64,000 nt of DNA from Branchiostoma lanceolatum. Lineage: Eukaryota > Chordata > Leptocardii > Amphioxiformes > Branchiostomatidae. Location: NCBI RefSeq assembly GCF_035083965.1, contig NC_089722.1, forward strand, positions 36,689,958-36,753,957, in the 5' to 3' direction. The position numbers and the translations under genes are program-made. Shown piece by piece: positions 5,996 to 47,174 of the stretch. The notes under the pieces are model-generated. The model was not told the DNA's origin and made no database searches. It saw nothing but the letters and a program-made list of their open reading frames with translations. Each line of letters opens with the position of its first letter. The first letter of the stretch is position 1.

Positions 5996-6035
5996 CCTAT
6001 CTAGACTGGACTCATTCTGTTCGTGGCACTCTAGT

Positions 6036-7190
6036 TACCTTCGCCGAGAAGGTTATGCAGAGGGTAGCGTTTGTGTGTGTGTGTGTGTGCGTATGTAAAG
6101 AAGCAGAATAACTCGAGAATGCTTGGATGGATTGTTTTGATATTTGGTAGGTGGGTAGGTCTTGATGAGACTAGGAAATGATTAGATTTTGGGTCTCCTA
6201 GCGGCTTGTTACGGTACTGCAGCGCAACTTCCTGTTTTGATATCTCGTGTTCTGGACAAGCTATGAAACTAATTTTTGAGTGGTAGATAGCTCTTTGGAC
6301 AGAGTAAGTGGTATAGGTTTTGGCCCCCTGGCGGCTTTTTTGGAACTGCAGGAGCAGGTTTTGGTTCAGACTTTGAAAGGGAATAACTCAAGAAGGGCTT
6401 GATGGATGGTCATGAATTTTGGTAAGTAGATAGCTTGAGTGATGATGTACATGATTAGATACTTATTATGAAAATCATTATGTAATTTGCATAATTAATG
6501 AGGAAAGTTCACACAGCCGCCAAATTCCATGGTAGGACTCTCAAACATGTGACATATGTATCTGAGGAAGAGAGAAATATTAATAGATATCAACTATGCA
6601 AATGAGGACCTCATTTGCATAATTAAAGAGAAAATACTATAATTCAAGATGGGCTTGATGGATGGTCATGACTTTTGGTATGTACATGTAAATAGCTGAT
6701 GTGATGCTTTGTATGATTGGACGATAATTATGCAAATCAGATTCTTATTTGCATAATTAATGAGACATTTAAAAAACCTGCTGTGTACCATGATATGACT
6801 ATTCAAATATGTGACATTTGTAACTGAGGAAGAGAGGGATGTTGATAGATAGAAAATATGCAATTGTAGGCCTAATTTGCATAATTAATGAGTAACTACG
6901 TTAATTCCATACAGTCAGGTAAATGATGGCAATTTCATAGTTGTGGCATTTGGAAGTTATGTGAAGGTGTACATAGTTGAATCAAATTATGCTGATAAGG
7001 ACCTCATTTGCATAATTGATGATGTTAGCATAACCTTCTTTGTTAAGCTCATACTTTGGACAATGTCTGTTATTTGGGTGAAGACGATCAACTAGTATGC
7101 TTTATGATTAATGAGAGACACTCCTAATACGTCAGTCATAAAGGTTAAAAATCATTTGGCGAAGGTATGAGGTCGTGGAACTCTAGTTAT
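6036..7190. mobile_element. Non-autonomous element ACCTTCGCC...GGCGAAGGT, copy 1
   Basis: Begins TACCTTCGCCGAGAAGGTTA and ends GGCGAAGGTATGAGGTCGTG then GAACTCTAG, giving short inverted tips (ACCTTCGCC/GGCGAAGGT). It is collinear with 23555-24706. Inside, a roughly 276-bp module is repeated: GGGCTTGATGGATGGTCATG, then TAGATAGCT, then TTTGCATAATTAATGAG. Seven ATTTGCAT/ATGCAAAT octamers are visible. There is a (GT)n run near 6070-6090. No transposase. Confidence 0.75.
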
Positions 7191-7249
7191 TCTATGCTTT
7201 ACCTCTACGTCACAAACTCCATGTGTCGCGATTTAATACTTCGTATTAA

Positions 7250-7720
7250 AAAGGGACCAACCATTTCACACTAAGTCAACTGGGAAGGGAGGGACCATCC
7301 ATTTAAGGTTAGGGTGTGGTGAAGGAGAAACAATGAAATAAAAAACCTGTACGTAAGTTAAAGGTCTATAATGGGAGGGACCACCCATTGTACATGGTCA
7401 TGGGTCTGAGAAGGGATGGACCATTAATGTCACATTGAGTTAACGGTCTGTATGAGAGGGCCAATGATTGTTACATGGATTAAGGATCTGGGAGGGGACT
7501 TAGCATCCATGTTACACTGGTCGAGGCTCTGGGAAATCTGAGACATCTAACATAGACTACAGAGGCTCAACGAGAGGGACCATACAGTCAAGGTCAGCTT
7601 CGAGGGAGAGGGAAATCCGTTTCACATAAGAGTGGGGATAAGGGGAGAGGGAACATCCATTCATGTCAGTTTGAGGTTGGGGAGGGAGACAGCATCCGTT
7701 TTCTTTCAAGATCAAATGGG
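7250..7720. repeat. Degenerate tandem repeat, period about 60 bp
   Basis: A loose reiteration of the theme GGGAGGGACCATCCATT followed by CACATGG and AAGGTCT. A fragment of the same theme (GGAACATCCATTAAGTGTCA) recurs at 20440-20460, suggesting it belongs to the duplicated segment that follows. Confidence 0.5.
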
Positions 7721-8446
7721 AAAAACTATAAACCAGGTTTTGAACTGTTTATTTGATAGCAATTGTTGACAAAAAAGAGGAATGCAAAGTGTTACAAATG
7801 GCACAAATTGCACTACACGTGAAACAATTGCAATTTCGAGAACTTCATTTACAGATTGCTGGGGGCATGACAGGAAGTTAACTTGATTTGGGATTGTCCT
7901 TTCAGTTCTAGGTTCAACCTAGAAATGTACCATCCCCTCTGTCTACCTGAAGCATTATCAGCTGAGAGAATCATGATCTCTTGACGGATGGCAAGGCGTT
8001 GAGTCCATTTTGATGACACCCTGAGTTTTGTTGCTGGTGAGGGGTCGAGACATTTCGAGAGCAACAACTACTTCTGCACACAGCGCTCCAGCCTGTTTCT
8101 ACGGTATACAAACCCAAATATATGACTAATTCGGTTACTGTGGCTATGTCGATGGCCGGGATTCCATTCGAATAAACCGCAAAGTTCAGTGCTCCAGAGA
8201 TCCGGGATTTCCCTGGTTCTGTCAGCTCACAACTACTCAGGCTCTCCAACCACCTGCCTTCCTTCCTGGCACTGTGCCATATCTTAGTTCGGGACTCCAA
8301 GATATGACACAAGGCAAATTATGTCCTGGTCTAGGTTTCCCGACAACCACCAACCAGTCTACATAAACAGAAAGGACAACAGATTGTAGAAGAACCCAAG
8401 CAGTCATAAACTAACAGAACCAGGAAAGTCCCCGTTCTCTGAAACA

Positions 8447-8665
8447 ATGAACTTCACAGCCACCCCGAGTACAATCTCAGCCACCGACACAGTCACAGAA
8501 ACCAAAAGAGCCACACACCGAGCATATACACCACAGAAACGGGCTAAAGCCCTGCGTGAAAAAGCAGCCACCACTAACAAAATGCCCTCACCCCCTACCA
8601 GCAATATCACTCGGGATGTCAACCAAATACACTCAAGCACCCTACCATCAACCAAGAGATTGTGA
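8447..8665 (+). pseudogene. Penelope-like RT N-terminal remnant, copy A
   Basis: The frame reads MNFTATPSTISATDTVTETK and continues with LREKAATTNKMPSPPTSNIT. The second half resembles the N-terminal region before the reverse transcriptase fingers of Penelope-like elements, where a charged helix is followed by a conserved IVILPADKG-type motif. The sister copy at 21786-22067 preserves that continuation; here a frameshift ends the frame before it. No RT core follows. It is a relic on the opposite strand to the flanking exon. The family call is by eye and moderate. Confidence 0.45.
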
Positions 8666-8806
8666 TCATCCCTGCCGACAATGCCTCAGGTACACAAAGG
8701 GAACCGTACGTTCAGTTAAAGCTATAAATGGAACATCACAAATCATTAAATTCCTATCACCCCAAGACAAGTCAGTCCCAGCCCAACTCTGCAATGATGT
8801 AAACAC

Positions 8807-9012
8807 TTAACAATGCCAGGTCCTCTGGCGGGGTGTACACGCGAGCACCGCCACCAGTCTTTCTGGATGTCACCGTGGAGATGGCGCACTTGGCATTGGA
8901 CGACCACCTCTCACCCAGAATAAGTCCCACCATAAACATCGGTGTAGTTGATCTGAGCTTCAAGGCATCAATAAGATCATGGAAGCTGCTGAGAGATGCC
9001 AGCTTCTTGTAA
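8807..9012 (-). CDS. Internal exon of unrecognised gene, copy A
   Basis: On the minus strand the sequence shows acceptor TTTTTTGCAG at 9016-9013, an open exon from 9012 to 8807, and donor GTGTTT. It encodes YKKLASLSSFHDLIDALKLR, then a strictly conserved TPMFMVGLILGER, then AISTVTSRKTGGGARVY. The homologous exon at 22179-22379 is also open with canonical borders. The two differ by in-frame codon gains or losses (WSSNAKC against LSNEC; TGGGAR against TGAR), the pattern expected under reading-frame selection. I do not recognise the domain. Neighbouring exons of this copy are separated by the large insertion at 10342-20104, so copy A may be an unusually long-introned gene or already dead. Confidence 0.5.
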
Positions 9013-10341
9013 CTGCAAAAAAGGGAAATTACGATCAATTAAGACTAATGATTTTTTGCTTTGAACATCCTAAAAAAGGCAGAAGGTTGCCTTATTGTCC
9101 GGCAGCAATTAGAAAGGTGACAGAAGTCATATGGAAGAAGTTAATGCCTGTGACACAAATATGTCACCTAAATTGGTTAACTGTTGGTTACTGATCCTAA
9201 CTGATTTAAGTTGATTATACTGGCAAAGTTTAACATCAGTGACAATGGCCTGAACTTGTCAAAAATTATAGTCTGCTTCAAAATTGGTAGTCTTGTTCAG
9301 GTTGGAGTAAGTTGTACAGGATCTACTCACAAGTGCTAATCCAGCAGTCTCCTCCAATCCCTTCAGTTTCGAATTCTGCAGCAGGGCCAGGGGACGTGTA
9401 TGATCAACAGCCACACCTTAACTGTTCATCCAGTCCTAAGTTGGAAAAGAAAAATACAATGTATTAGGACATTTAATTATAGTCAGACCGTTTTCAGGCA
9501 CACATTTCATTTACCGGGAAATGTCTGGTTTATAGGTAGAGTTCGAATTTAATTAAAGAGTAAAGCGCTGCGATACCTAAGACAATTGCATATCCTTAAG
9601 GTTATTACAAGGGTGTTCAATTTTTGACCTTGCTGTCTGTCTGACCTTTAGAAAAGAACTGCAGCTTTTGTAGATAAGCCGGTAGATTCGCTTTGTGATG
9701 TACTGGATGTTGTCACATAGCATCTTCAGTGACGGTGTTACTTGGCACCTCCCGTACCCAGCCCCGGAGTAGCACGTCCAGACATTTCTGCGATATTAGC
9801 AGAAAAAGGCATACATCAGCTGACAAAGTCCAACCATGATATTTACATCCTATACATTCAATTCACAATCAGACAAACAAGTAAAAGACAAAACTTTTCC
9901 AGTAAGCATTGTTCAGGTTCAGAAATTAAAACAGTCTAGTAACTTAAACTTGCCAACACAAAGGAATAAATCACTCATTGACAAAACCTTGTCCTTTAAT
10001 TTAAAATTTGGGTGGTGATGGTAATAACGGAACCTGAGCCTGCTTTCACACAATACAGTACAATACCTTGTCATATCTGTGGAAGCCGCATGTGCTCAAC
10101 AGCTCATTCTATTCACGTGCCTCTTCTAGTCCTAAGTTGTAAAGAGAAATGTAGAATACATTGGGACATTTGATTAGAATGTCAGGAAGTTTGTTAGTAC
10201 TTGGTTCGTTCACCTAATTTTCCATGTAACAGATTAAAATGGTACACATTAAAACATAAGACGCTGCGAAATCATAGACGCTTGAGGAAAAGCCGGGTTA
10301 GTTTATAGTCCTAGCTTATATAACTTTGATATCATAAGTGA

Positions 10342-10380
10342 CACTACTAGGTGCATAAATGTGAAAATTATGTGAATTTT
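10342..10380. repeat. Left terminal inverted repeat of CACTA-like element
   Basis: Thirty-nine bases, perfect reverse complement of 20066-20104, beginning CACTACTAGGTGC. The flanking TGA at 10339-10341 is the target duplication. Confidence 0.85.
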
Positions 10381-10480
10381 TGGCAAAATTTGAAGAAAAT
10401 GTGATAAAATGTGATATAATGTTATCATTATGTTTTCAAATGTGATAAAATGTGATATAATGTTATCATTATGTTTTCTA
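10381..10480. repeat. Left sub-terminal repeats
   Basis: A 40-bp unit containing AAATGTGATAAAATGTGATA and TGTTATCATTATG is duplicated in tandem (about 10397-10476). The motif mirrors the TTTCACAT-rich zone at the other end. Confidence 0.7.
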
Positions 10481-10482
10481 AA

Positions 10483-13400
10483 CCTGAGAACCTTTTAAAA
10501 CGCTAGAAACGTATATTGTACCATGGCAAGATATACAGCATCCTAGTTATTCATCTTGAGTAACGGGTGTTTTTGTAGGATTAAAAAAAGGCTTCTAGAT
10601 AGAACATTGACAGCACAGTTAAAAGAGTTTGAGTGCAGCACTGACAGACTATTGTAAATCGTCTCGTATGGAAGAGTTGATAATTCCATGTTGTTTTCTG
10701 GTGTTAGGGACACTTTTGGAAGTAGTGAAATATTGTTGTAACGCTACATGATATCCAGGATTCTAGTATAAGATCATAGCCTGCTGTTGACTTGTAGAGC
10801 ACTTTACAATTTACATCCGCGCAGAAATATGTACAGCACTGATTACATACGCGTTATGAAATAGGTCTGTCGGGCGGTCTTTTAATGGAAAATTGAAAGT
10901 TCCGTGTTGTTTTCTTAACTTGAGAACCATGTAGACAGGTAGGAATATAAATTGTACCATGGCAAGACATACAGCATCCTAGTTATTCATTTTGAGTAAC
11001 GGGCGTCTTTATGGGATTAAAAAAAGGCTTTTAGATAGAAGATTGACAGCACAGTTAAAAGAGTTTGGGTGCACGCACTGACAGACTATTGTAAATCGTC
11101 TCGTATTGAAAAGTTGATAATTTCGTCTTGTTTTCTGGTGTAAGGAACACTTTAGGAAGTAAGAAAGATAAGCTGGAACGTCACAAGATATTTAGGATTC
11201 TAGTATGAGATCATAGCTTGCGGTTGACTTGTATAGCGTTTTACAATTTACATCCGGGCAGAGATATATCGGCGCTTTCCTCATGCACCTTATGCAAAAT
11301 GTCTGTCGGACGGTCTTTCAGTTCCGTGTTGTTTTCTAAACCTGAGAACCTTTTAAAACGCTAGAAACATATACTGTACCATGGCAAGATATACAGCATC
11401 CTAGTTATCCATCTTGAGTAACGGGTGTTTTTGTAGGATTAAAAAAAGGCTTCTAGAAAGAACATTAACAGCACAGTCAAAAGAGTTTCAGTGCAGCACT
11501 GACAGACTATTGTAAATCATCTCGTATTGAAAAGTTGATAATTCCGTGTTGTTTTCTGGTGTTAGGGACACTATTGGAAGTGGTGAAATCTTGTTGTAAC
11601 GTTACATGATATCCAGGATTCTAGTATAAGATCATAGCCTGCGGTTGACTCGTAGAGCGCTTTACAATTTACATCCGCGCAGAAATATGTACAGCACTGA
11701 TTACATACACGTTATGAAACAGGTCTGTCGGGCGGTCTTTTAATGGAAAATTGAAAGTTCCGTGTTGTTTTCTAAACCTGAGAACCTTATAGCCAGGTAG
11801 AAATATAAATTGTATCATGGCAAGATATAAAGTATCCTAGTTATTTATTTTGAGTAACGGGCGTCTTTATGGGATTAAAAAAAAGGCTTCTACATAGAAG
11901 ATTGACAGCACCGTTAAAAGAGTTTGGGTGCACCCGCTGACGCACTGTTGTAAATCGTCTCGCATTGAAAAGTTGATAATTTCGTCTTGTTTTCTGGTGT
12001 AAGGAACACTTTAGGAAGTAAGAAAGATAAGCTGGAACGTCACAAGATATCTAGGATTCTAGTATGAGATCATAGCTTGCGGTTGACTTGTATAGCGTTT
12101 TACAATTTACATCCGGGCAGAGATATATCGGCGCTTTCTTCATGCACCTTATGCAAAATGTCTGTCGGACGGTCTTTCAGTTCCGTGTTGTTTTCTAAAC
12201 CTGAGAACCTTTTAAAACGCTAGAAACATATACTGTACCATGGCAAGATATACAGCATCCTAGTTATCCATCTTGAGTAACGGGTGTTTTTGTAGGATTA
12301 AAAAAAGGCTTCTAGAAAGAACATTAACAGCACAGTTAAAAGAGTTTCAGTGCAGCACTGACAGACTATTGTAAATCGTCTCGTATTGAAAAGTTGATAA
12401 TTCCGTGTTGTTTTCTGGTGTAAGGGACACTATTGGAAGTGGTGAAATCTTGTTGTAACGTTACATGATATCCAGGATTCTAGTATAAGATCATAGCCTG
12501 CGGTTGACTCGTAGAGCGCTTTACAATTTACATCCGCGCAGAAATATGTACAGCACTGATTACATACACGTTATGAAATAGGTCTGTCGGGCGGTCTTTT
12601 AATGGAAAATTGAAAGTTCCGTGTTGTTTTCTAAACCTGAGAACCTTATAGCCAGGTACAAATATAAATTGTATCATGGCAAGATATAAAGTATCCTAGT
12701 TATTCATTTTGAGTAACGGGCGTCTTTATGGGATTAAAAAAAAGGCTTCTACATATAAGATTGACAGCACCGCTAAAAGAGTTTGGGTGCACCCGCTGAC
12801 GCACTGTTGTAAATCGTCTCGCAATGAAAAGTTGATAATTTCGTCTTGTTTTCTGGTGTAAGGAACACTTTAGGAAGTAAGAAATATAAGCTGGAACGTC
12901 ACAAGATATCTAGGATTCTAGTATGAGATCATAGCTTGCGGTTGACTTGTATAGCGTTTTACAATTTACATCCGGGCAGAGATATATCGGCGCTTTCTTC
13001 ATGCACCTTATGCAAAATGTCTGTCGGACGGTCTTTCAGTTCCGTGTTGTTTTCTAAACCTGAGAACCTTTTAAAACGCTAGAAACATATACTGTACCAT
13101 GGCAAGATATACAGCATCCTAGTTATCCATCTTGAGTAACGGGTGTTTTTGTAGGATTAAAAAAAGGCTTCTAGAAAGAACATTAACAGCACAGTCAAAA
13201 GAGTTTCAGTGCAGCACTGACAGACTATTGTAAATCATCTCGTATTGAAAAGTTGATAATTCCGTGTTGTTTTCTGGTGTTAGGGACACTATTGGAAGTG
13301 GTGAAATCTTGTTGTAACGTTACATGATATCCAGGATTCTAGTATAAGATCATAGCCTGCGGTTGACTCGTAGAGCGCTTTACAATTTACATCCGCGCAG

Positions 13401-16129
13401 AAATATGTACAGCACTGATTACATACACGTTATGAAACAGGTCTGTCGGGCGGTCTTTTAATGGAAAATTGAAAGTTCCGTGTTGTTTTCTAAACCTGAG
13501 AACCTTATAGCCAGGTAGAAATATAAATTGTATCATGGCAAGATATAAAGTATCCTAGTTATTTATTTTGAGTAACGGGCGTCTTTATGGGATTAAAAAA
13601 AAGGCTTCTACATAGAAGATTGACAGCACCGTTAAAAGAGTTTGGGTGCACCCGCTGACGCACTGTTGTAAATCGTCTCGCATTGAAAAGTTGATAATTT
13701 CGTCTTGTTTTCTGGTGTAAGGAACACTTTAGGAAGTAAGAAAGATAAGCTGGAACGTCACAAGATATCTAGGATTCTAGTATGAGATCATAGCTTGCGG
13801 TTGACTTGTATAGCGTTTTACAATTTACATCCGGGCAGAGATATATCGGCGCTTTCCTCATGCACCTTATGCAAAATGTCTGTCGGACGGTCTTTCAGTT
13901 CCGTGTTGTTTTCTAAACCTGAGGACCTTTTAAAACGCTAGAAACGTATATTGTACCATGGCAAGATATACAGCATCCTAGTTATCCATCTTGAGTAACG
14001 GGTGTTTTTGTAGCTAGGTTTAACAAAAGGCTTCTAGATAGAACATTGACAGCACAGTTAAAAGAGTTTGAGTGCAGCACTGACAGACTATTGTAAATCG
14101 TCTCGTATGGAAGAGTTGATAATTCCGTGTTGTTTTCTGGTGTTAGGGACACTATTGGAAGTAGTGAAATATTGTTGTAACGCTACATGATATCCAGGAT
14201 TCTAGTATAAGATCATAGCCTGCGGTTGACTTGTAGAGCGCTTTACAATTTACATCCGCGCAGAAATATGTACAACACTGATTACATACACGTTATGAAA
14301 TAGGTCTGTCGGGCGGTTTTTAATGGAAAATTGAAAGTTTCGTGTTGTTTTCTTAACTTCAGAACCATATAGACAGGTAGAAATATAAATTGTACCACGG
14401 CAAGACATACAGCATCCTAGTTATTCATTTTGAGTAACGGGCGTCTTTATAGGATTAAAAAAAGGCTTTTAGATAGAAGATTGACAGCACAGTTAAAAGA
14501 GTTTGGGTGCACGCACTGACAGACTATTGTAAATCGTCTCGTATTGAAAAGTGATAATTCCGTGTTGTTTTCTGGTGTTAGGGACACTGTTGGAAGTAGT
14601 GAAATATTGTTGTAACGCTACATGATATCCAGGATTGTAGTATAAGACCATAGCCTGCGGTTGACTTGTAGAGCGCTTTGCAATTTACATCCGGGCAGAA
14701 ACATGTACAACACTGATTACATACACGTTATGAAACAGGTCTGTCGGGCGGTCTTTTAATGGAAAATTGAAAGTTCCGTGTTGTTTTCTAAACTTGAGAA
14801 CCTTGTAGACAGGTGGAAATATAAATTGTATCATGGCAAGACATACAGCATCCTAGTTATTCATTTTGAGTAACGGGTGTCTTTAAATAATTAGAAAAAG
14901 GCTTCTAAATAGAGCATTGACAGCACAGTTAAAAGAGTTTCAGTGCACGCACTGACAGACTGTTGTAAATCGTCTCGTATTGAAAAGTGATAATTCCGTG
15001 TTGTTTTCTGGTGTTAGGGATACTATTGGAAGTGGTGAAATCTTGTTGTAACGTTACATGATATCCAGGATTCTGGTATAAGATCATAGCCTGCTGTTGA
15101 CTTGTAGAGCGCTTTACAATTTACATCCGCGCAGAAATATGTACAGCACTGATTACATACACGTTATGAAACAGGTCTGTCGGGTGGTCTTTTTAATGGA
15201 AAATTGAAAGTTCCGTGTTGTTTTCTAAACCTGAGAACCTTATAGCCAGGTAGAAATACATATTGTATCATGGCAAGATATACAGTATCCTAGTTATTCA
15301 TTTTGAGTAACGGGCGTCTTTATGGGATTAAAAAAAGGCTTCTACATAGAGGATTGACAGCACCGTTAAAAGAGTTTGGGTGCACCCGCTGACGCACTGT
15401 TGTAAATCGTCTCGCATTGAAAAGTTGATAATTTCGTCTTGTTTTCTGGTGTAAGGAACACTTTAGGAAGTAAGAAAGATAAGCTGGAACGTCACAAGAT
15501 ATTTAGGATTCTAGTATGAGATCATAGCTTGCGGTTGACTTGTATAGCGTTTTACAATTTACATCCGGGCAGAGATATATCGGCGCTTTCTTCATGCACC
15601 TTATGCAAAATGTCTGTCGGACGGTCTTTCAGTTCCGTGTTGTTTTCTTAACCTGAGAACCTTTTAAAACGCTAGAACATATACTGTACCATGGCAAGAT
15701 ATACAGCATCCTAGTTATCCATCTTGAGCAACGGGTGTTTTTGTAGGATTAAAAAAAGGCTTCTAGATAGAACATTGACAGCACAGTTAAAAGAGTTTGG
15801 GTGCACACACTGACAGACTATTGTAAATCGTCTGGTATTGAAAAGTGATATTTCCGTGTTGTTTTCTGGTGTTAGGGACACTATATTGGAAGTGGTGAAA
15901 TCTTTTTGAAACGTTACATGGTATCCTGCGGTTGACTTGTAGAGCGCTTTACAATTTACATCCGCGCAGAAATATGTACAGCACTGATTACATACACGTT
16001 ATGAAACAGGTCTGTCGGGCGGTCTTTTAATGGAAAATTGAAAGTTCCGTGTTGTTTTCTAAACCTGTGAACCTTATAGACAGGTAGAAATACATCTTGT
16101 ATCATGGCAAGATATACAGTATTCTAGTT
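10483..16129. repeat. Higher-order satellite array, 859-bp dimer
   Basis: Two diverged monomers alternate: A (about 437 bp, TTTTAAAACGCTAGAAAC then GTGTTTTTGTAGGATT) and B (about 422 bp, AGACAGGTAGAAAT then GCGTCTTTATGGGATT). Using the shared ATGGCAAGA landmark, A units start at 10523, 11381, 12240, 13099, 13958 and 15691, and B units at 10959, 11817, 12676, 13535, 14397, 14833, 15270 and 16104. The dimer period is 858-859 bp over four successive units, then the strict alternation breaks down after 14.3 kb. No open frame of 60 codons occurs across 10.0-16.1 kb. It resumes at 17752 after the Penelope insertion. Confidence 0.9.
16119..16129. other. Target-site duplication, Penelope insertion (left)
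   Basis: GTATTCTAGTT, repeated exactly at 17752-17762. The string is satellite sequence (compare GTATCCTAGTTATTCATT in other units), so the 11-bp duplication was created when the retroelement inserted. Confidence 0.85.
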
Positions 16130-17751
16130 CTTCACTTGAAAGTTCATCTGTGTTGGTAGAAGTCATTCTGAATGGAGTTTGAACTATAAATGCCAACACA
16201 AAAATTGGACTTACCCAAATTTTCTTAGTAGTATTGACTCCATTTCTTACTGTTGTGCGAAGTATCTGGCAGATACTCTTGCCCCATTAGTGGGCAATAC
16301 TCGACATCATATTAAGAACTCACAGCAATTTGTAGAACTGATTAAACATGAACATGTAGAAGAAGATGAGGAACTCCGTTCTTATGATGTGACAGCACTT
16401 TTCACTTCAGTTCCGGTTGATAAGGCAGCAGATGTAATTCTACAGAGACTGAAGGAAGATAAGTCTTTACCCCAACGCTCTACTTTGAGCCCAGAACAGT
16501 TGGTTGACTTACTCAAAATCTGCCTGAACTGTTCTTACTTTGTGTATGATGGTGTATTCTATCAGCAGATCCATGGGGCCGCAATGGGGTCACCAGTTTC
16601 CCCCATTGTGTGCAATCTGTACTTAGAACACTTGGAACAACTTGCCATCAGATCTGCACCCCACCCCCCTGTGTGGTGGTTCAGATATGTCGACGATACG
16701 TTTACTAAACTAAAGAAGGCGTACGCCAATGATTTTACAGAACACCTAAACAACTTGGACCCAGACATTAAGTTCACGTTTGAGAAGGAAGAGAATAGAT
16801 CTTTAGCGTTCCTTGACACTTTAACAACAGTACAAGAAGACGGGTCACTGCAAGTTAAGATCTACCGCAAACCCACGCACACGGACCAGTATTTAAACTT
16901 CCAATCAAACCACCCCTTGGACCATAAACTCGGGGTTGTCCGTACCCTTTTTCACAGGGCGGAAACCCTTATCACGGATCCACAGGACAAAGAAGACGAG
17001 AAACTTCACATTACAAGTGCCTTGAAAAAGTGCGGTTATCCCACTTGGGCTATTGAGAAAGCCACTGCGCCCAAACCCCAACGGCCCAGCAGTACTAACA
17101 AGACCCGGAACAACAAGGGAACCAACAGGGGATTCGTCACTTTGCCCTACACGAAAGGGGTGTCTGAAGGACTTAGACGCATTTTCACATCACATGGCAT
17201 AAAGACCTGTTTTAAGCCAACAAGAACACTTCGAAATGCCCTAGTAGCGCCTAAGGATAAAACACCTAGGGAGGACAAGTGCGGAGTTGTGTACTTCATT
17301 CCTTGTCAAGGTCAAAACATTAGAGGCCAGTGTAAAGAAACGTACATTGGAGAGACTGAACGCTCACTGAAAACCCGCTTCAACGAACACAAGCGTCCGA
17401 GCACAACCTCTTCTGAAGTTTCAAAACACATTCACTTAGAGTCGCCTGGACATTCGGTTTCATTGGACAAGGTTAAGATTCTGGACACAGAATCGGAATT
17501 TTTTGCGAGAGGGATTAAGGAGTCCATCTACATCCGGGCATTACAACCATCCCTCAACAGAGACGGAGGGCGCCATAGACTTTCTGCAACCTATGATCCA
17601 CTGCTGTCCGAGTCACGTGTCTCATCTGCATAACGTGACGTCACAGAAGCAGTGGATTGCTCATTCCTTGACAAAGACTGGTGCTGTTCAGTCGAAAATT
17701 TGGGTAAGTCCAATTTTTGTGTTGGCATTTATAGTTCAAACTCCATTCAGA
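16130..17751 (+). mobile_element. Penelope-like element, 5'-truncated, with inverted terminus
   Basis: The 1622-bp insertion lies between 11-bp duplications in the satellite. Its first part carries, in reverse orientation, the same sequence that ends the element: 16167-16224 is the reverse complement of 17694-17751. The right terminus contains GACAAAGACTGGTG and GAAAATTTGGGTAAGTCC. A solo copy of that terminus is at 38243-38364. The RT lacks its N-terminal fingers, consistent with truncated reverse transcription plus a template jump onto the terminal repeat. Inverted terminal repeats of this type are known for Penelope elements. Confidence 0.85.
16179..17633 (+). CDS. Penelope-like reverse transcriptase with GIY-YIG endonuclease (partial)
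   Basis: A 484-codon open frame. RT motifs in order: YDVTALFTSVP (residues 69-79), GAAMGSPVSP (133-142), the catalytic FRYVDD block (168-173), then YRKPTHTDQYLNFQSNHP, a signature of Penelope-like RTs. The C-terminal third carries a GIY-YIG nuclease domain: CGVVYFIP, a cysteine-bearing loop, ETYIGETERSLKTRFNEH, as in endonuclease-plus Penelope elements. About the first 15 residues come from the inverted terminal repeat, not from the RT; true homology starts near LSSIDSISYCCAKYLAD. The fingers region is missing, so the protein is probably not functional, although no internal stop is present. A complete family member would be considerably longer. Confidence 0.9.
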   Translation: MNYKCQHKNWTYPNFLSSIDSISYCCAKYLADTLAPLVGNTRHHIKNSQQFVELIKHEHVEEDEELRSYDVTALFTSVPVDKAADVILQRLKEDKSLPQRSTLSPEQLVDLLKICLNCSYFVYDGVFYQQIHGAAMGSPVSPIVCNLYLEHLEQLAIRSAPHPPVWWFRYVDDTFTKLKKAYANDFTEHLNNLDPDIKFTFEKEENRSLAFLDTLTTVQEDGSLQVKIYRKPTHTDQYLNFQSNHPLDHKLGVVRTLFHRAETLITDPQDKEDEKLHITSALKKCGYPTWAIEKATAPKPQRPSSTNKTRNNKGTNRGFVTLPYTKGVSEGLRRIFTSHGIKTCFKPTRTLRNALVAPKDKTPREDKCGVVYFIPCQGQNIRGQCKETYIGETERSLKTRFNEHKRPSTTSSEVSKHIHLESPGHSVSLDKVKILDTESEFFARGIKESIYIRALQPSLNRDGGRHRLSATYDPLLSESRVSSA

Positions 17752-18150
17752 GTATTCTAGTTATTTATTTTGAGTAATTAATATAACGGGCGTCTTTATA
17801 GGATTAAAAAAAAGGCTTCTACATAGAAGATTAACAGCACCGTTAAAAGAGTTTGGGTGCACGCGCTGAAACACTATTGTAAATCGTCTCGTATGGAAAA
17901 GTTGATAATTCCGTGTTGTTTTCTGGTATAAGGGAAGTGGTGAAATCTTGTTGTAACGTTACATGATATCCAGGATTCTAGTATAAGATCATAGCCTGCT
18001 GTTGACTTGTATAGCGTTTTTTTTTTAATTTACATCCGCGCAGAAATATGTACAGCACTGATTACATACACGTTATGAAAATGTCTGTCGGGCGGTCTTT
18101 TAATGGAAAATTGATAGTTCCGTGTTGTTTTCTAAACCGGAGAACCTCCA
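17752..18150. repeat. Satellite array, continuation after Penelope insertion
   Basis: Resumes in phase with the left side (GTATTCTAGTTATTTATTTT, then GCGTCTTTATAGGATT) and ends at TTCTAAACCGGAGAACCT. The last unit is degenerate, with an extra T-run near 18020 and several small deletions, as expected at an array edge. Confidence 0.85.
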
Positions 18151-18740
18151 ACACCCCTGAAAATCCATATTCTAATGTATCAAGATTTACACCGTTCTTG
18201 TAAACACATATTGAATAACGGGTATTTTGTGGAGGATTTCGGAGCTTGGGCTTACAGCGGATGGTGGGGTGGGGTCGGAGGGAACGGGAGGGTGGGCCGG
18301 GAGAGCTTCGGCGCGCGTGCGGTGCTCGGTGGCGCGCCGATTATGGTGTCTGGACTCCCAGGGTACTTGTTCCTGTATTCAAGTTAAGGTCACTGTAAGA
18401 AGTTTGATGGACGTGTTTTTAAACACCAGTGTTAAAACACCAGACGGTATGCAGGATTTTAGTATGATTCCTCGGGCTCGTTCCATTCTAGTACCCTACA
18501 CAAGGAAGCCATTGACCTGGCATCCGGTCTACCGTTGTTTGGCCGGGACGTCTTCGGGACGACAGGGTTTTCCGCCCCGGGGTAATATTTGGCACCCGGT
18601 AGTAGTTTTACGTGGCCGGAGTTCAATTGTTCCCCGTGTATCGTTGTGGCCGATTAGATTTTTACCACGTGAAAAATCCAAAGATAACCCTGACCTTAAA
18701 AAGCCCAGTCTTTCCCGAAGAGAGCTTGGCCTAACATAGC
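18151..18740. other. GC-rich unique segment inside the CACTA-like element
   Basis: Composition changes sharply from the AT-rich satellite to G-rich sequence (GGTGGGGTGGGGTCGGAGGG at about 18263). A 170-codon plus frame (18227-18739) spans it, but shows no recognised domain, no paralogue here and an arginine- and glycine-rich composition expected of any GC-rich frame, so it is not called as a gene. Confidence 0.4.
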
Positions 18741-18897
18741 CCTAAGCCTCTACTAGGCTCCGCTGATCGCTGGGAAAATAGTAGAACAACGCCTATTGAA
18801 CTTCCTGCATAGCGGACTACCCTTGGCATACTATTCACTCTATTTGGCCGATTTCTACTGTTTTCCCAGTGATCAGCGGAGGCTGGTAGATGCTAGT
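18741..18897. repeat. Small fold-back element
   Basis: An arm containing GCTCCGCTGATCGCTGGGAA (about 18747-18786) pairs with CCCAGTGATCAGCGGAGGC on the other side (about 18857-18897), giving roughly 40-bp imperfect arms around a loop of about 70 bp. Likely a MITE or the edge of a captured element. Confidence 0.6.
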
Positions 18898-19110
18898 TTT
18901 TGGCTACAACAGTTTGCGATAGGGCCAGTAGGATGCCTTCGTGGCGATTTTGAGTGGACACGATGTGTTTGTTTTTACGTTAGAGTTCGACTTCCGACAG
19001 GGGCCGGTAAAACATTTTGTTTTCAGGCCATACCGTCCTTCCTCAACTCACCAGACTCTCTTGTCGATCATTGCCTTGAAAATGGTCCTCTCTTGCATCA
19101 AAATGCACCC
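18850..19110 (+). pseudogene. RecQ-like helicase fragment (Walker A)
   Basis: One frame contains AILSGHDVFVF and an adjacent frame contains RLPTGAGKTFCFQAIPSF. Together they match the start of a RecQ-type DEAD/DEAH helicase: a G-x-DVFV strand running into motif I (xPTGxGKS/T-x-C-F/Y-Q). The two halves are separated by a frameshift of about 20 bases' uncertainty, and the downstream IVVSPLIALMKDQ-like part is only vaguely visible (SIIALKMVLSCIKMH). No later helicase motifs follow. It is therefore a dead fragment, possibly captured by the surrounding CACTA-like element. The helicase call rests on motif I alone. Confidence 0.5.
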
Positions 19111-19679
19111 AAAAGACAAGTTTGGCTATCAAAATTCAACAAAGCAAAATGTTTATTTTCCCGCTCGATCGCTGCAGATTGACCGCACAGTAACGCAAAT
19201 ATCGCGTTAACAATGATCATATTACATTTTGTTACAAAAAAATAATCAGCTCTAGACCATTTTTTCAACAATGAAAAAATGTTGTTCCCTTTGTATTTCA
19301 GCAAGAAAATACCGAGAATACAAGCACCTCAATAAAGAATGTAATTTTATATGTTTTGCTGGCACCCCCTACTTGACCTTTGACACAGCCGGCTTCCCTA
19401 CATGGGCTACAATCACGCCCGGCCGCGCCCCACTAAGAAGCCAAACAACAGCGCGGAAATCTGTACTTCATCCAGCCACGAGCTCACTTCGCACATACTT
19501 GATACTGATTTTGAAATGTAAATATACCAGAGATTACTTCTGATAGCATTTACAAGAGCGTCGGTAGATGCTGGAGATGAAAAGTTTGAAAGGTGATGCA
19601 TTATTTCTTGAGAGATGGCGGTAAATGCATATATTTTTGTTTCGTCTTGTGGAGCGTGAAATAAAAGTATGGTGGACAT
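19111..19679. other. Unassigned interior of CACTA-like element
   Basis: Nothing recognised: short frames on both strands, no splice-like exon pair, no repeat of other parts of the window. Confidence 0.4.
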
Positions 19680-20065
19680 TTTGTTTCACATAAAATCACA
19701 TTATCAGCTAGGGTACCGGCAAATGTGAAATTATGTGAAACATTTTCACATAAAATAACATTTTCACGATTATGTGAAAAAATGTGATTTGAATTTCACA
19801 TAATTTCACATTTGACTCCTTGCAGTTTTCGGAAGAAAATCGCTTCACATTTCTCCACATTTTTTCACATTTCACATTCACATTTTTTTTGGTCATGTTT
19901 TAGGGTTGTGCGATTTCACATAATGGTTTCACATTTTTCAAAGGGTCACATTTTTTCACATATAATAACATTTCGTGATTCACATTTTGAAAAAAAATCA
20001 CATTTTGTGTTTCACATATTTTTGATTGGATTCACATAATGTCACATTTTCTTGGAATTTTGTAG
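19680..20065. repeat. Right sub-terminal TTTCACAT repeats
   Basis: The heptamer-like string TTCACAT or its complement ATGTGAA occurs very densely (for example TTTCACATAATTTCACATTT near 19795). Such sub-terminal arrays are transposase-binding regions in CACTA elements; here the role is inferred. Confidence 0.75.
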
Positions 20066-20104
20066 AAAATTCACATAATTTTCACATTTATGCACCTAGT
20101 AGTG
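20066..20104. repeat. Right terminal inverted repeat of CACTA-like element
   Basis: Perfect reverse complement of 10342-10380, ending CACCTAGTAGTG, followed by the TGA target duplication at 20105-20107. Confidence 0.85.
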
Positions 20105-20298
20105 TGAATGGAAGATCATCCAGTCAAGTACAACCACAGAGCATTGGATCAGCCCCGCAAACCCAATGACAATCAGCTGAAGAAAAGCCGGATAAGGAGG
20201 CTCCGATGTAAAGGTTTAAACTGCAGAAAAACTCCTACCTAACCGAAGTTACTAATAAAAAAACATGTCCCTGACTATTCGTAAGCAGCTGGTCTTAC

Positions 20299-20375
20299 CT
20301 TCAGAACAAACACAGGTCCGCATGTCCTCAATGATGGTCTCGGTGACGTCTTGGTACTGCTCCGGGTGCTGTCTT
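20299..20375 (-). CDS. Possible exon, segmental duplication copy A (right part)
   Basis: On the minus strand the frame RQHPEQYQDVTETIIEDM then RTCVCSE runs into donor GTAAGAC at 20298. The homologous place in copy B (23027-23100) also has an open frame (RRDTEAIFDDMRRLRK) and a donor GTGAAA. The upstream border is unclear, since a TGA closes the frame before 20375. Moderate evidence for a real but fast-changing exon of the same unrecognised gene as 8807-9012. No function can be given. Confidence 0.3.
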
Positions 20376-20639
20376 CATGTTCGTCGCGAAGCCCCCGTTG
20401 TGATGACGCTTGATAACTGGCGATGTGGGGAGAAGGAACATCCATTAAGTGTCAGTATGGGACCAAAAAACTATTATCAAATCCTAAATAATGCTAAACC
20501 TCCCGAGTTGATAATGTCAATACATGATAGAGTGGTGGTAGCTTGGAACCGTTTTGGACTAATGAAGTCTTTAAGAAAGTTTTTTTTGCCGCTTAAGGCT
20601 AAGTCATCTGTCAGATAGTTGTTAATGTGTTTGTGTTAG

Positions 20640-20975
20640 TGCGTTTGTGTTGTGTGTGTGTTATTGCGGCCATAGGACTGTAGGTTTTGAACCACGCACA
20701 CCAGGAAGTGCGGTGGGTTCTTTAACGTGCTCGAGGTGTGGCTCTCCTCAAACACGGGGCCTCCATTTAACGTCCTATCCGAGGGACGTCCCTAACCGAA
20801 GCTAAGGTACTCATTTACACTTGAGTGAAGTGAGGAAAGTCGTGTTAAGTACCTTTCCCAAGGACACAACGTCAAAGGGACAAATCAGGGAACCCCGGAT
20901 TCGAACTCATCTGCAGCTGGGTTCTGGGGCCAAACACCCTGCCACTGTCACCGCGACGCCACACGTGTATGTGTG
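20640..20975 (-). mobile_element. tRNA-derived SINE
   Basis: Read on the minus strand: CGTGTGGCGTCGCGGTGACA, GGGTGTTTGGCCCCAGAACC and B box GAGTTCGAATCC, then the body with GGGAAAGGTACTTAACACGA and TGTAAATGAGTACC, and a tail containing GTTAAAGAACCCACC. Same family as 24760-25185. Confidence 0.7.
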
Positions 20976-21185
20976 CATTAGTATGTGAGTGTTAATTTGT
21001 GTGTGTGTTCCAACGTCAGCCTAGCCTTAATATAAGTAGCCGAAATTTCAATAGGACTTTAAAGGAGGCTACAAGCTCAGCCCTCTATACCATAAATGGG
21101 CAATATCAACATCTACTAAATATAAAAGATACAAAAAGATGAGACAAAACAAACTATATATAAAAGATCACTTAACAAAAATTTC
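20976..21185. other. No gene recognised
   Basis: AT-rich spacer between the SINE and copy B of the segmental duplication; nothing supported. Confidence 0.4.
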
Positions 21186-21785
21186 ATCTACAGACTGGTG
21201 GGGGCATGACAGGAAGTTAACTTGATTTGGGATTGTCATTTCAGTTCTAGGTTCAACCTAGAAATGTACCATCCCCTCTGTCTACCTGAAGCATTATCAG
21301 CTGAGAGAATCACGATCTCTTGACAGATGGCAAGGTGCTGAGTCCATTTTGATGACACCCTGAGTTTTGTTGCTGGTAAGGGGTCGAGACATCTCGAGAG
21401 CAACGACTACTTCTGCACACAGCGCTCCAGCCTGTTTCTACGCTATATACACCCGAATGTATGACTAATTCAGTTACTGTGGCTATGTCGATTGCCGGGA
21501 TTACATTCGAAGAAACCGCAAAGTTCAGTGCTCCAGAGATCAGGGATTTCCCTGGTTCTGTCAGCTCACAACTACTCAGGCTCTCCAACCACCTGCCTTC
21601 CTTCCTGGCCCTGTGCCATATCTTAGTTCGGGACTCCAAGATATGACACAAGGCAAATTATGTCCTGGTCTAGGTTTCCCGACAACCACCAACCAGTCTA
21701 CATAAACAGAAAGGACAACAGATTGTAGAAGAACCCAAGCAGTCATAAACTAACAGAACCAGGAAAGTCCCCGTTCTCTGAAACA

Positions 21786-22067
21786 ATGAACTTCACAGCC
21801 ACCCCGAATACAATCTCAGCCACCGACACAGTCACAGAAACCAAAAGAGCCTCACACCGAGCATATACACCACAGAAACGGGCTAAAGCCCTGCGTGAAA
21901 AAGCAGCCACCACTCACAAAATGCCCTCACCCCCTACCAGCAATATCACTCGGGATGTCAACCAAACACACATCAAGCACCCTATCATCAACCAAGAGAT
22001 TGTGATCATCCCTGCCGACAATGCCTCTGGTACACAAAGGGAACCGTACGTTCAATTAAAGCTATAA
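21786..22067 (+). pseudogene. Penelope-like RT N-terminal remnant, copy B
   Basis: Ninety-three codons: MNFTATPNTISATDTVTETK, RAKALREKAATTHKMPSPPT, then INQEIVIIPADNASGTQ. The EIVIIPADN string corresponds to the conserved IVILPADKG-type motif upstream of the RT fingers in Penelope-like elements, with the usual lysine-glycine changed. The frame ends soon after and no RT core is present. Its sister at 8447-8665 is frameshifted before this motif. Both were present before the segmental duplication. Confidence 0.5.
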
Positions 22068-22178
22068 ATGGAACATCACAAATCATTAACTTCCTACCAC
22101 GCCAATGACATTAGTCAGTCCCAACCCAAGTCTTTGAAAACATCTATCTTATTCCCATAATGATTACTCATGAATCAC

Positions 22179-22379
22179 TTAACAATGCCATGTCCTCTTG
22201 CAGGGCGTACACACGAGCACCGGTCTTCCTGGACGTCACCGTAGAGATGGCGCACTCGTTGGACAGCCTCTCACCCAGAATAAGTCCCACCATGAACATC
22301 GGTGTAGCTGATTCGGGCTTGATGGCATCAATACGGTCCTGGAAGCTGCTGAGAGATGTCAGCCTCCTTTGTTTTGTAG
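22179..22379 (-). CDS. Internal exon of unrecognised gene, copy B
   Basis: Minus-strand acceptor TTTCTTGCAG precedes 22379; the exon is open to 22179 where GTGATT serves as donor. It encodes RRLTSLSSFQDRIDAIKPES, TPMFMVGLILGER, then LSNECAISTVTSRKTGARVY. Differences from copy A (8807-9012) are mostly substitutions and whole-codon indels, so both copies have been held open since duplication. The domain is not recognised. A conserved TPMFMVGLILGER core suggests a buried hydrophobic segment, but nothing identifies a fold. Confidence 0.5.
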
Positions 22380-23026
22380 CTGCAAGAAAGTAAAATAATC
22401 AATTAGGATGAGGCATATTAACATTAGCTAGCAAGCAAGCAAGCAGAGTAACATCTTTTGCGGTGCGAAACAAATGACGATTGAATATCCTGAAGTTAGC
22501 GAGTTCAATTCTCGACCTTGCTGTCTGTGTCATATTTAACAAAAGAACACACCCGTTACGGTTCTCGTGGATAAGCCGGTAGATTCGCTTGACACATCCT
22601 TGGCTTGGTGATGTACTGGATGCTGTCACATGGCGCCTTTAGGGATGGTGGCGCCCCAGAGTAGCACGTACGTCTAGACATTTCTGCGACATCGGAAGAA
22701 GAAACAGACATGCATAAGCTGACAAAAAACAACAAGACTTTACTAGCATTAAAGCATTGTTCAGGTCCAGAAATTGACATTTTTGGTTATCTTGAAATTG
22801 CCAGCACAAAGGACTAAATCACCCGACATAATTTTCTGTGACATTGCATATTGGCGGAAGAATCAGAAATGCATAATATAAGCTGGTCGTGATTTTCAAA
22901 TCCTACATACAATTCACAATCAGATAACCAAGTGAAAGAACAAGACTTCTCTAGTGTTAAAGCATTGTTCACATCCAGAAATCAAAACAGTCTGTAACTT
23001 GCCAACACAAAGGAATAAAATTTCAC

Positions 23027-23100
23027 CTTTCCGTAAACGCCGCATGTCATCGAAGATGGCCTCGGTGTCACGTCTTGGACCACAGGCCCCGGAAACCTTC
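23027..23100 (-). CDS. Possible exon, copy B
   Basis: Minus-strand frame KVSGACGPRRDTEAIFDDMR then RLRK before donor GTGAAA. Partly homologous to 20299-20375 but offset by a 2-bp difference in its first half, so at least one copy has changed frame locally. Weak call. Confidence 0.25.
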
Positions 23101-23554
23101 TTTTAGGGTTTGCTACGAAGCTCCCGTTGCGGTCAGACGCTTGATAACCGGGGACGCTGAATCCCAGGTCACTGCCGTGTCCAACATGTCGGCTGACGGC
23201 AGCAAAAACCGTAAAGTCTTGTCCTGCTGATAGCTAGGGCTGAAGTGACGGCCACGTGAAAGCCTTCTGCACACGGCATGCGGAAAAATACTGCTCTGTG
23301 ATTCGTCCAAGAAGAGAATTCCGGGTTACCATTGGTAACAAGAATGCACGTGTTCCCTATTGGTTGATGAGAATGAACTCATCATGCAGTCTGTCACTCA
23401 TTGGTTATCTACACTGATGAAATTAATCAAAGCAACGCGATGGGTAAAAACAATGCTTTCTTCATGCGACGATTACACATTATGTAGTCATCGATTCTTT
23501 ATTGAGACTCTCTTTATTGAGACTAAATCCCCTGGCAAAATATTTCCCCTAATT

Positions 23555-24706
23555 ACCCTCGCCGAGAAGGTTATGCAGAGGGTAGCGTTTGTGTGTGTGT
23601 GTGTGTTTGTGGGTTTGTTATTAACGTACAGCATAACTCGAGAAGGCTTGTATGGATTGTCTTGATATTTGGTTGGTGGGTAGGTCTTGATGAGACTTGG
23701 AAATGATTAGATTTTGGGTCCCCTACCGGCTTGATACGGTACTGCAGCGGAACTTCCTGTTTTGATATATCGTGTTCTGGACAAGCTATGGAACTAATTT
23801 TTGAGTGGTAGATAGCTCTTTGGACAGAGAGTAAGTGGTATAGGTTTTGGCCACCTAGCAACTTTTTTGGAACTGCAGGAGCAGGTTTTGTTTCAGACTT
23901 TGAAAGGGAATAACTCAAGAAGGGCTTGATGGATGGTCATGATTTTTGATTAGTAGATAACTTTAATGATGATGTACATGATAAGATACTTATTATGCAA
24001 ATCAGCATCTAATTTGCATAATTAATGAGGAAAGTTTATACAGCCGCCAAATTCCGTGATAGGACTCTCAAACATGTAACAAATGTAACTGAGGAAGCGA
24101 GAAATATTAATAGATATCAACTATGCAAATGAGGACCTCATTTGCATAATTAATGAGAAAATACTAGAACTCAAGATGGGCTTGATGGATGTTCATGATT
24201 TTTGGTATATAGATAGCTTAGGTGATACTTTGTATGATTAGACGATAATCATGCAAATCAGATTCTAATTTGCATAATTAATGAGACAATTTTAAAAAAC
24301 CGCTGTGTTCCATGATCTGACTATTCAAATATGTGACATTTGTAACTGAGGAAGAGAGGAATGTTAATAGATAGAAAACATGCAATTGTAGGCCTAATTT
24401 GCATAATTAATGAGAAAGGACTATAATTCCATACAGGTAAATGATGGCAATTTCATACTTGTGGCATTTGGAAGTTATGTGAATGTGAACATCGCTGAAT
24501 CAAATTATGCTAATAAGGGCCTTATTTGCATAATTGATTATATATGGTCGCATAACCTTTTTTAAGCTCATACTTTGGACGACTTCTGTTATTTGGGTGA
24601 AGACGATCAACTGGTATGATTTATAATTGATGAGAAACACTCCTTATACGTCAGTCATAAAGGTTAAAATCATTTGGCGAAGGTACAAGGTCGTGGAACT
24701 CTAGTT
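23555..24706. mobile_element. Non-autonomous element ACCTTCGCC-type, copy 2
   Basis: Collinear with 6036-7190 throughout. Starts at ACCCTCGCCGAGAAGGTTAT and ends GGCGAAGGTACAAGGTCGTG then GAACTCTAG. Eight ATTTGCAT/ATGCAAAT octamers are visible, in the same places as in copy 1. No coding capacity. Confidence 0.75.
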
Positions 24707-38229: not shown

Positions 38230-38242
38230 CCTGTCAGATGTG

Positions 38243-38364
38243 TGGATTGCTCACTCCTTGACAAAGACTGGTGTCGTACAGTCGAAAATTTGGGTAAGTC
38301 CAATTTTTCTGTTGGAAATTACAGTTCAAACTTGTTTCAGAACGCAGATGAACTTTCAAGCTAA
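38243..38364. mobile_element. Solo Penelope-like terminal repeat with 13-bp target duplication
   Basis: TGGATTGCTCACTCCTTGAC, then GTCGAAAATTTGGGTAAGTC, matches the right end of the Penelope element at 17653-17747. It continues past that copy's end with CGCAGATGAACTTTCAAG, which is found inverted at the left end of the same element (16133-16150). It is flanked by CCTGTCAGATGTG at 38230-38242 and 38365-38377. The 122-bp unit thus defines a complete terminal repeat inserted alone. Confidence 0.8.
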
Positions 38365-40438: not shown

Positions 40439-40446
40439 GATTTGGT

Positions 40447-41138
40447 TAGCCGTGGCGACTCTTTAATCGGGTATATTTTGCTGTATGTCTAAAGACTCTT
40501 TTACATTACCCTCACAAGAGTCGTGGAAAGACCCATTGAAAAATCTACACACAATCCATCCGCTGCGCGATAGTTGCTTCCCCGCCAGGTTTCTGGGTGT
40601 CCCTAGCTTCCTTGCACCCTTACCTATCATTCCGCACCCGTAGGAATCCCAGATCACCCGTAATATATCCACAGCGCGACCATTTGCGAACAATCCCCCA
40701 CGCAACGCTCCCTGAGTTCAACCGCGCGGCCATCTTGTTTGACGTCGGCGATGTTCGGAAGATTTCCGACCGTTTCCGGAAAGCGCTCGGAACGTCGTCG
40801 GTGGATCTTCGCTATTTTTCCGGAAACGGTCGGAAATCTTCCGAACCTTCCGAACATCGCCGACGTCAAACAAGATGGCCGCGCGGTTGAACTCAGGGAG
40901 CGATACGCGCTGTGGATATATTACGGGTGATCTGGGATTCCTACGGGTGCGGAATGATAGGTAAGGGTGCAAGGAAGCTAGGGACACCCAGAAACCTGGC
41001 GGGGAAGCAACTATCGCGCAGCGGATGGATTGTGTGTAGATTTTTCAATGGGTCTTTCCACGACTCTTGTGAGGGTAATGTAAAAGAGTCTTTAGACATA
41101 CAGCAAAATATACCCGATTAAAGAGTCGCCACGGCTAA
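40447..41138. mobile_element. Near-perfect 692-bp palindromic (fold-back) element
   Basis: The left arm TAGCCGTGGCGACTCTTTAA and the right end TTAAAGAGTCGCCACGGCTA are complementary, and pairing continues with few interruptions to the centre near 40793. It is flanked by GATTTGGT at 40439-40446 and 41139-41146, an 8-bp target duplication as made by hAT-type transposases. Each arm holds CGCGCGGCCATCTTGTTTGA, containing a YY1-type GCCATCTTG and a GACGTC core, and the inner part has repeated GGAAGATTTCCGACCGTTTC units. Mirrored open frames on both strands are by-products of the symmetry. Confidence 0.9.
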
Positions 41139-42627: not shown

Positions 42628-42936
42628 TTACAGGTCCAAAGTGTCCAGGTAGTTGTCTAAAGCGCGGACGTACTCGTCTCTGTGAAGCCTCATGTGGTTG
42701 GAGTGGGAGGAGTCGTCCCAGAACTGCAGCCGGACGTCGCAGCCCAGCTTTCGCCAACCCTCGACGCAGCGCTCGTTGTACTCTTTGGTAGACATCGGGT
42801 CGTTATGGCAACCGTAGAGCAGAATCGGCGTCTTCGGGATCTGTGTTTCCCAGTAAGAGCGGGTCTGGAAGTCCAGATATTTCGTCATAAAAACCGTGAT
42901 GTTGGCGGAATCCTGGAAGCTCTGCGACACAAAAAC

Positions 42937-43004
<68 letters not shown>

Positions 43005-46866: not shown

Positions 46867-47174
46867 CCCACCTGTCACTTTTTCAAACTTGATACCTCAT
46901 TAGCAAGTCTGGCATCCAGGCACTCAGCTGTCGATGACAGATGACCTACTTTTACGTGGTGTCCGATTTCGTACTGTCCGGAGTGTGTCAGGGAGTTCAC
47001 CGAATCTAGTATTCTAGCTTCCCACCTGTCACTTTTTCAAACTTGATACCTCATTAGCAAGTCTGGCATCCAGGCACTCAGCTGTCGATGACAGATGACC
47101 TACTTTTACGTGGTGTCCGATTTCGTACTGTCCGGAGTGTGTCAGGGAGTTCACCGAATCTAGTATTCTAGCTT
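46867..47174. repeat. Perfect 154-bp tandem duplication
   Basis: 46867-47020 (CCCACCTGTCACTTTTTCAA to GTATTCTAGCTT) is repeated without any mismatch that I can see at 47021-47174. It contains the short inverted segment AGCTGTCGATGACAG. Either very recent or an assembly effect. Confidence 0.9.

Follow-up and report, generated by a model that had tools for sequence, protein, structure and literature searches.

The locus at 10342-20104 raises the question of how a long satellite array came to lie between the ends of a CACTA-type transposon, and whether ends and array have moved as a unit. The window, that is, the whole stretch of 64,000 nucleotides that we analyzed, contains a span of 9763 bp (10342-20104) bounded by an inverted pair starting with CACTA and delimited by the following features:

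10339-10341, no strand: left TGA of the 3-bp target duplication
10342-10380, plus strand: left end, perfect 39-bp terminal inverted repeat with a CACTA start
20066-20104, minus strand: right end, perfect 39-bp terminal inverted repeat
20105-20107, no strand: right TGA of the 3-bp target duplication

The perfect 39-bp CACTA ends and the TGA on both sides had been proposed in a previous, sequence-only reading, and both were recovered here. The inverted ends reach 40 bp if the next base on each side is counted, and beyond the perfect 39 bp they still pair at 89% out to 74 bp. CACTA elements are described as generating a 3-bp target site duplication (PMC8978399), a trait seen here as TGA at both borders of one locus, where a 3-bp match is expected by chance about once in 64; this duplication alone is weak evidence for transposition. 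We compared the pair with the other exact inverted pairs of at least 25 bp in the window, two-letter repeats being excluded: 17 were listed, including the ends of the element, and six of the 17 measure at least 40 bp, the CACTA pair among the six. A 26-bp pair (4075/24141) and a 25-bp pair (6147/43441) also enclose the stretch, but both are part of other repeats. The CACTA pair is distinctive by its combination of a CACTA start, a 3-bp duplication and a sub-terminal motif. No further occurrence of the 39-bp tip was found in the window with 8 substitutions allowed, and its first 20 bp (4 substitutions) and first 15 bp (2 substitutions) are likewise absent elsewhere in the window. Neither a 22-bp nor a 20-bp tip had an exact match in viral and prokaryotic contig collections, which has no bearing on the host genome.

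Next to the ends lie two sub-terminal regions of very different length:

10359-10478, plus strand: left sub-terminal region, short, six ATGTGA and two 41-bp units
19681-20104, minus strand: right sub-terminal region, 14 copies of TTTCACAT (both strands counted), ends in the right terminal repeat

Counting both strands, TTTCACAT occurs at 25 sites in the window against 5.18 expected, a number reached by none of 100 shuffles, and 14 of the 25 sites cluster at 19684-20087, the others being at the left end (one), in the retroelement fragment described below (one) and outside the element (nine). The sub-terminal repeats are lopsided, strong on the right and reduced on the far shorter left side to one TTTCACAT and six ATGTGA (10359-10455), which corrects the sub-terminal arrays proposed earlier. 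The left region also carries a 41-bp unit in two exact copies (10397-10478) that continue into the first satellite monomer; the 7 bases that end the unit also begin the satellite register, which is a register of our choosing.

The interior on the right, adjoining the sub-terminal region, is not satellite:

18239-19680, no strand: non-satellite right interior, ~1.44 kb, no recognised coding sequence

Coding content was assessed with Pfam in 10 of the 32 frames of at least 60 aa, a search that could miss a spliced, decayed or non-Pfam gene. No Pfam family was found in these 10 frames at E up to 10, the two right-side frames included, and no Pfam transposase in the two right-side frames at E up to 0.1. 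In CACTA/EnSpm transposons, a Tnp2-type transposase is encoded by the element or by an autonomous relative that shares its tips. The earlier statement that no transposase lies inside the element is thus upheld for the frames tested, and the capture of a host gene, for which the same 10 of 32 frames gave no Pfam match, was rejected. Rfam returned no match within 9000-21500. The CpG observed/expected ratio (0.90-0.96 in the array, 0.94 in the right interior) is not unusual: outside the element, 24%, 7% and 21% of windows reach these values. The right interior also contains an inverted repeat at 18745-18894, with 42-nt arms at 88%, possibly a nested MITE. Taken together, the terminal repeats, the duplicated TGA and the clustering of the sub-terminal motif are consistent with a CACTA/EnSpm-type element that lacks a recognisable transposase.

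Between the left sub-terminal region and this right interior, the element is occupied by a satellite, in three parts:

10472-16129, plus strand: satellite array, m01-m13 in full plus the left portion of m14; A and B alternate over m01-m09, followed by two hybrids, one B and one A
17751-18153, plus strand: array remainder, right part of m14 (A/B hybrid) and start of m15
18154-18238, plus strand: degenerate satellite tail, aligned with a score of 42 (highest among 1000 shuffles, 38)

The satellite amounts to ~6.05 kb in total, with a monomer of 412-439 bp and much of its length organized as 859-bp A/B dimers, in agreement with the ~6 kb of higher-order tandem repeat previously noted. It is composed of 13 whole monomers, one monomer (m14) split by an insertion, the start of m15 and, at the right border, the short degenerate tail, which is nearer to type A than to type B and whose score is reached by 0 of 1000 shuffles. 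We assigned 14 monomers to types A and B using 58 diagnostic columns, 14 of which represent one length difference. Type A (m01, m03, m05, m07, m09 and m13) and type B (m02, m04, m06, m08 and m12) are each 94-100% alike, while A and B share 81-84% identity and alternate strictly from m01 to m09. Dimer copies are more alike than adjacent monomers and follow each other head to tail, as in a higher-order repeat. Three monomers, m10, m11 and m14R, show mostly B states in their left part and mostly A states in their right part at these columns, with few exceptions, a pattern that would make them A/B hybrids of the sort left behind by unequal exchange between the two types. Among the dimers, D2 and D4 show 1 difference in 859 positions and D3 differs from them at 10 and 11; compared with D2-D4, D1 differs at 41-44 positions, D6 at 38-42 and D5 at 84-85. 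The middle of the array is near-identical and its edges are more divergent. Since D2 resembles D4 more than either resembles the intervening D3, their pattern suggests a recent step of two dimers, or 1718 bp.

The satellite was found nowhere else in the window among the matches listed (200 of 359, including every one that touches the array; E up to 1e-5). In a more sensitive test of the flanks, the observed satellite score was reached in 46 of 200 shuffles on the left and in 143 of 200 on the right. Within the window, the satellite is confined strictly between the tips.

The insertion that splits m14 provides a point of reference for the age of the array. It comprises the following features:

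16118-16129, no strand: left copy of a 12-bp target duplication, a satellite sequence variant
16130-17750, plus strand: Penelope-like retroelement fragment, 497-aa frame at 16140-17633, reverse transcriptase then GIY-YIG
17751-17762, no strand: right copy of the 12-bp target duplication

The fragment is flanked on both sides by the 12-bp duplication AGTATTCTAGTT, and both flanking copies have a T variant that is present at 0 of the 13 other monomer sites. Because the duplicated 12 bp are satellite and their T variant is found in no other monomer, the fragment inserted into a pre-existing array, and the array is older than this insertion. The reverse transcriptase match (RVT_1) scores 21.8 bits with the whole frame and 23.1 bits with a piece of it, below the Pfam cut-off of 29.6, and the GIY-YIG match scores 21.0 bits when the C-terminal piece is searched alone, below the cut-off of 22.6; the best match to a solved structure is weak (E 0.021, a group II intron-like reverse transcriptase). 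The reverse transcriptase match begins at profile position 64-72 of 205, and the fragment is probably 5′-truncated. It is bounded by perfect 58-bp inverted ends (16167-16224 and 17694-17751). The succession of these two sub-threshold matches, reverse transcriptase and then GIY-YIG in one frame, together with the inverted ends, is what we take to fit Penelope-like elements, which have a variable target duplication and an inverted terminal fragment, here of 12 bp and 58 bp. The likeness to Penelope-like elements with GIY-YIG lies in the terminal inverted fragment, the 12-bp duplication and, as far as the weak matches indicate, the domain order, the difference being that the fragment here is probably truncated. 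A second piece akin to its ends lies at 38242-38360. The interior had been described as satellite, which is true of the array; that description omitted both the later retroelement at 16130-17750 and the ~1.44 kb of non-satellite sequence at 18239-19680.

We then considered the surroundings of the element. A search for an empty site, using the two flanks joined without the element, matched only the flanks themselves across the junction, plus short matches to one side or the other. Collinear paralogous blocks, up to 90% identical, lie on either side of the element at 6031-9970 and 20318-24706; within them, 7841-9044 matches 21180-22408 at 90%, 9837-9970 matches 22890-23019 at 80%, and 20318-20420 matches 23040-23151 at 71%. 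These blocks suggest a tandem segmental duplication or neighbouring repeat copies. Between 23019 and 23040, the second unit has no copy of the element and was considered as a clean empty site, but it was rejected because ~370 and 210 bp of the flanks are missing there too. Other repeats were noted in the window: an exact 287-bp inverted pair at 496-782/5145-5431, in the repeat-rich first 6 kb; a near-perfect palindrome at 40446-41138, with exact 233-bp arms, inner pairs of 56 and 30 bp and GATTTGG on both outer sides, which looks like a foldback-type element; and a 154-bp unit duplicated in tandem at 100% identity (46867-47174). On the minus strand, two related DUF829 exons (42628-44255 and 50204-50809), which we assume to be TMEM53-like, suggest a duplicated gene, and non-LTR-type retroelement frames occupy 53447-54961, with a reverse transcriptase match at 53984-54466 (E 7.9e-23).

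Based on the features read directly from the sequence, namely the ends, the confinement of the array in the window, its dimeric pattern and hybrid monomers, and the insertion that followed, we favor the hypothesis that this locus is a non-autonomous CACTA/EnSpm-like transposon, moved in trans, in which amplification of interior sequence beside the left sub-terminal region gave rise to the satellite, and we give it a probability of roughly 0.6. In this model, a single sequence next to the left sub-terminal region would have been the starting state; its tandem duplication would have been followed by the divergence of A and B, and unequal exchange would then have amplified the A/B dimers. The landing of the Penelope-like fragment in the finished array, an insertion that is itself read directly, would be the last step in this presumed order. 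The satellite would thus have been born inside the element rather than captured, a transposase encoded elsewhere would move the element in trans, and element and satellite may have transposed as one unit. The previously proposed non-autonomous CACTA element with a satellite cargo is retained as regards the ends, the duplication, the motif and the satellite between the tips, with the amendment that the cargo includes a retroelement inserted later. Counting against our model, only one copy is visible in the window, where neither an autonomous partner nor a clean empty site was seen, and the right interior yielded no single-copy source of the monomer. The weakness of the 3-bp duplication taken singly, the much shorter sub-terminal region on the left and the coverage of the transposase search, 10 of 32 frames with Pfam, also weigh on that side. 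In that search, the score of 57 obtained for 18239-19700 on the plus strand was reached by 73 of 200 shuffles, and that of the minus strand by 8 of 200; with the subregions, the figures were 7 of 200 (18239-18760) and 88 of 200 (18895-19700). As eight tests were made, the 7/200 and 8/200 results were not counted as evidence, and no single-copy source was found in the right interior beyond the degenerate tail.

Given this negative search, some weight, though clearly the lesser share, must be left to the capture by the element of a dimeric satellite that pre-existed elsewhere in the genome. The divergence of ~16-19% between A and B, each 94-100% alike within itself, fits an old dimer taken ready-made, the right interior holds no unamplified source, and the Jozin case discussed below is so labelled in a figure legend (PMC8978399). 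The confinement of the satellite to the element within the window speaks, however, against capture, and the right border, which decays into a degenerate monomer, is explained at least equally well by growth in place. We consider it improbable that the two tips belong to separate elements or to a rearranged pair, such that the stretch between them never moved as a unit: the region is indeed rich in repeats with other inverted pairs, one copy is visible and the sub-terminal regions are unequal in length, but the 39-bp ends are perfect, correctly oriented and bordered by the same outer 3 bp, and the sub-terminal sequence matches to 74 bp at 89%. We judge it equally improbable that misassembly accounts for some of the array length or for the near-identical middle. 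Assemblers do collapse or expand repeats such as D2 and D4, with their 1 difference in 859; against this, D3, which lies between the two, differs from both at 10-11 positions, and the right side of the array bears unique landmarks in the form of hybrid monomers, the nested fragment and the degenerate tail.

This is a clear single-locus case of an A/B higher-order satellite within transposon ends, in which the nested insertion gives a relative order of events. As a more speculative extension, which we regard as rather unlikely, the element could belong to an animal CACTA-type family whose normal cargo is a dimeric higher-order satellite; its scattered copies would have the same tips but different array lengths, and new satellite loci would arise through transposition instead of recombination between arrays. 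Relatives with the same tips, if there are any, would offer a direct test of whether a higher-order satellite can form in, and be spread by, an animal cut-and-paste element.

Satellite-carrying transposons are already known, with both CACTA elements bearing satellite arrays and satellite-bearing animal transposons published, and a connection of transposons with satellites in general, also for CACTA elements, has been reported (PMC8978399, PMC7320549, PMC9659126). Our search of open-licence papers found no description of the tip sequence or of this element, which is not evidence that they are unpublished; a passage of PMC3485254 gives no end sequences. The closest system is Jozin (PMC8978399), a CACTA-like element from Chenopodium quinoa that is 16.5 kb long and contains an array of 5550 bp built from a 171-bp monomer. 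Both are of CACTA type, with sub-terminal repeats and a kilobase-scale satellite (5550 bp vs. ~6.05 kb) placed towards one end. Jozin is described as having a transposase domain, a simple 171-bp monomer and several copies, whereas the element reported here has no transposase in the frames tested, is known from one copy and has monomers of 412-439 bp paired as A/B dimers. In addition, the major Chenopodium satellite is reported to derive from a tnp2 fragment of Jozin (PMC7320549). In Arabidopsis, ATENSPM/ENSAT1 likewise ties a satellite to an En/Spm-type element, but this is a plant and autonomous system; cases involving MITEs and Helitrons are tabulated in the same source (PMC9659126). Among animals, the Tetris foldback element of Drosophila virilis is also apparently non-autonomous, with internal tandem repeats forming arrays of kilobase size, but its ~220-bp repeats lie within the inverted ends, in contrast to the interior array and perfect 39-bp ends found here (PMC4079207). 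The miDNA4 and Xstir MITEs of Xenopus are inverted-repeat elements with internal tandem repeats of variable copy number; unlike our element, they are miniature and without CACTA ends, miDNA4 being of Tc1/mariner type (PMC12628747, PMC9659126), and tandem-repeat expansion inside MITEs has been described (PMC12628747). Compared with these systems, the element reported here is distinct in the A/B dimeric order of a long monomer, in having no recognised transposase and in its probable animal host.
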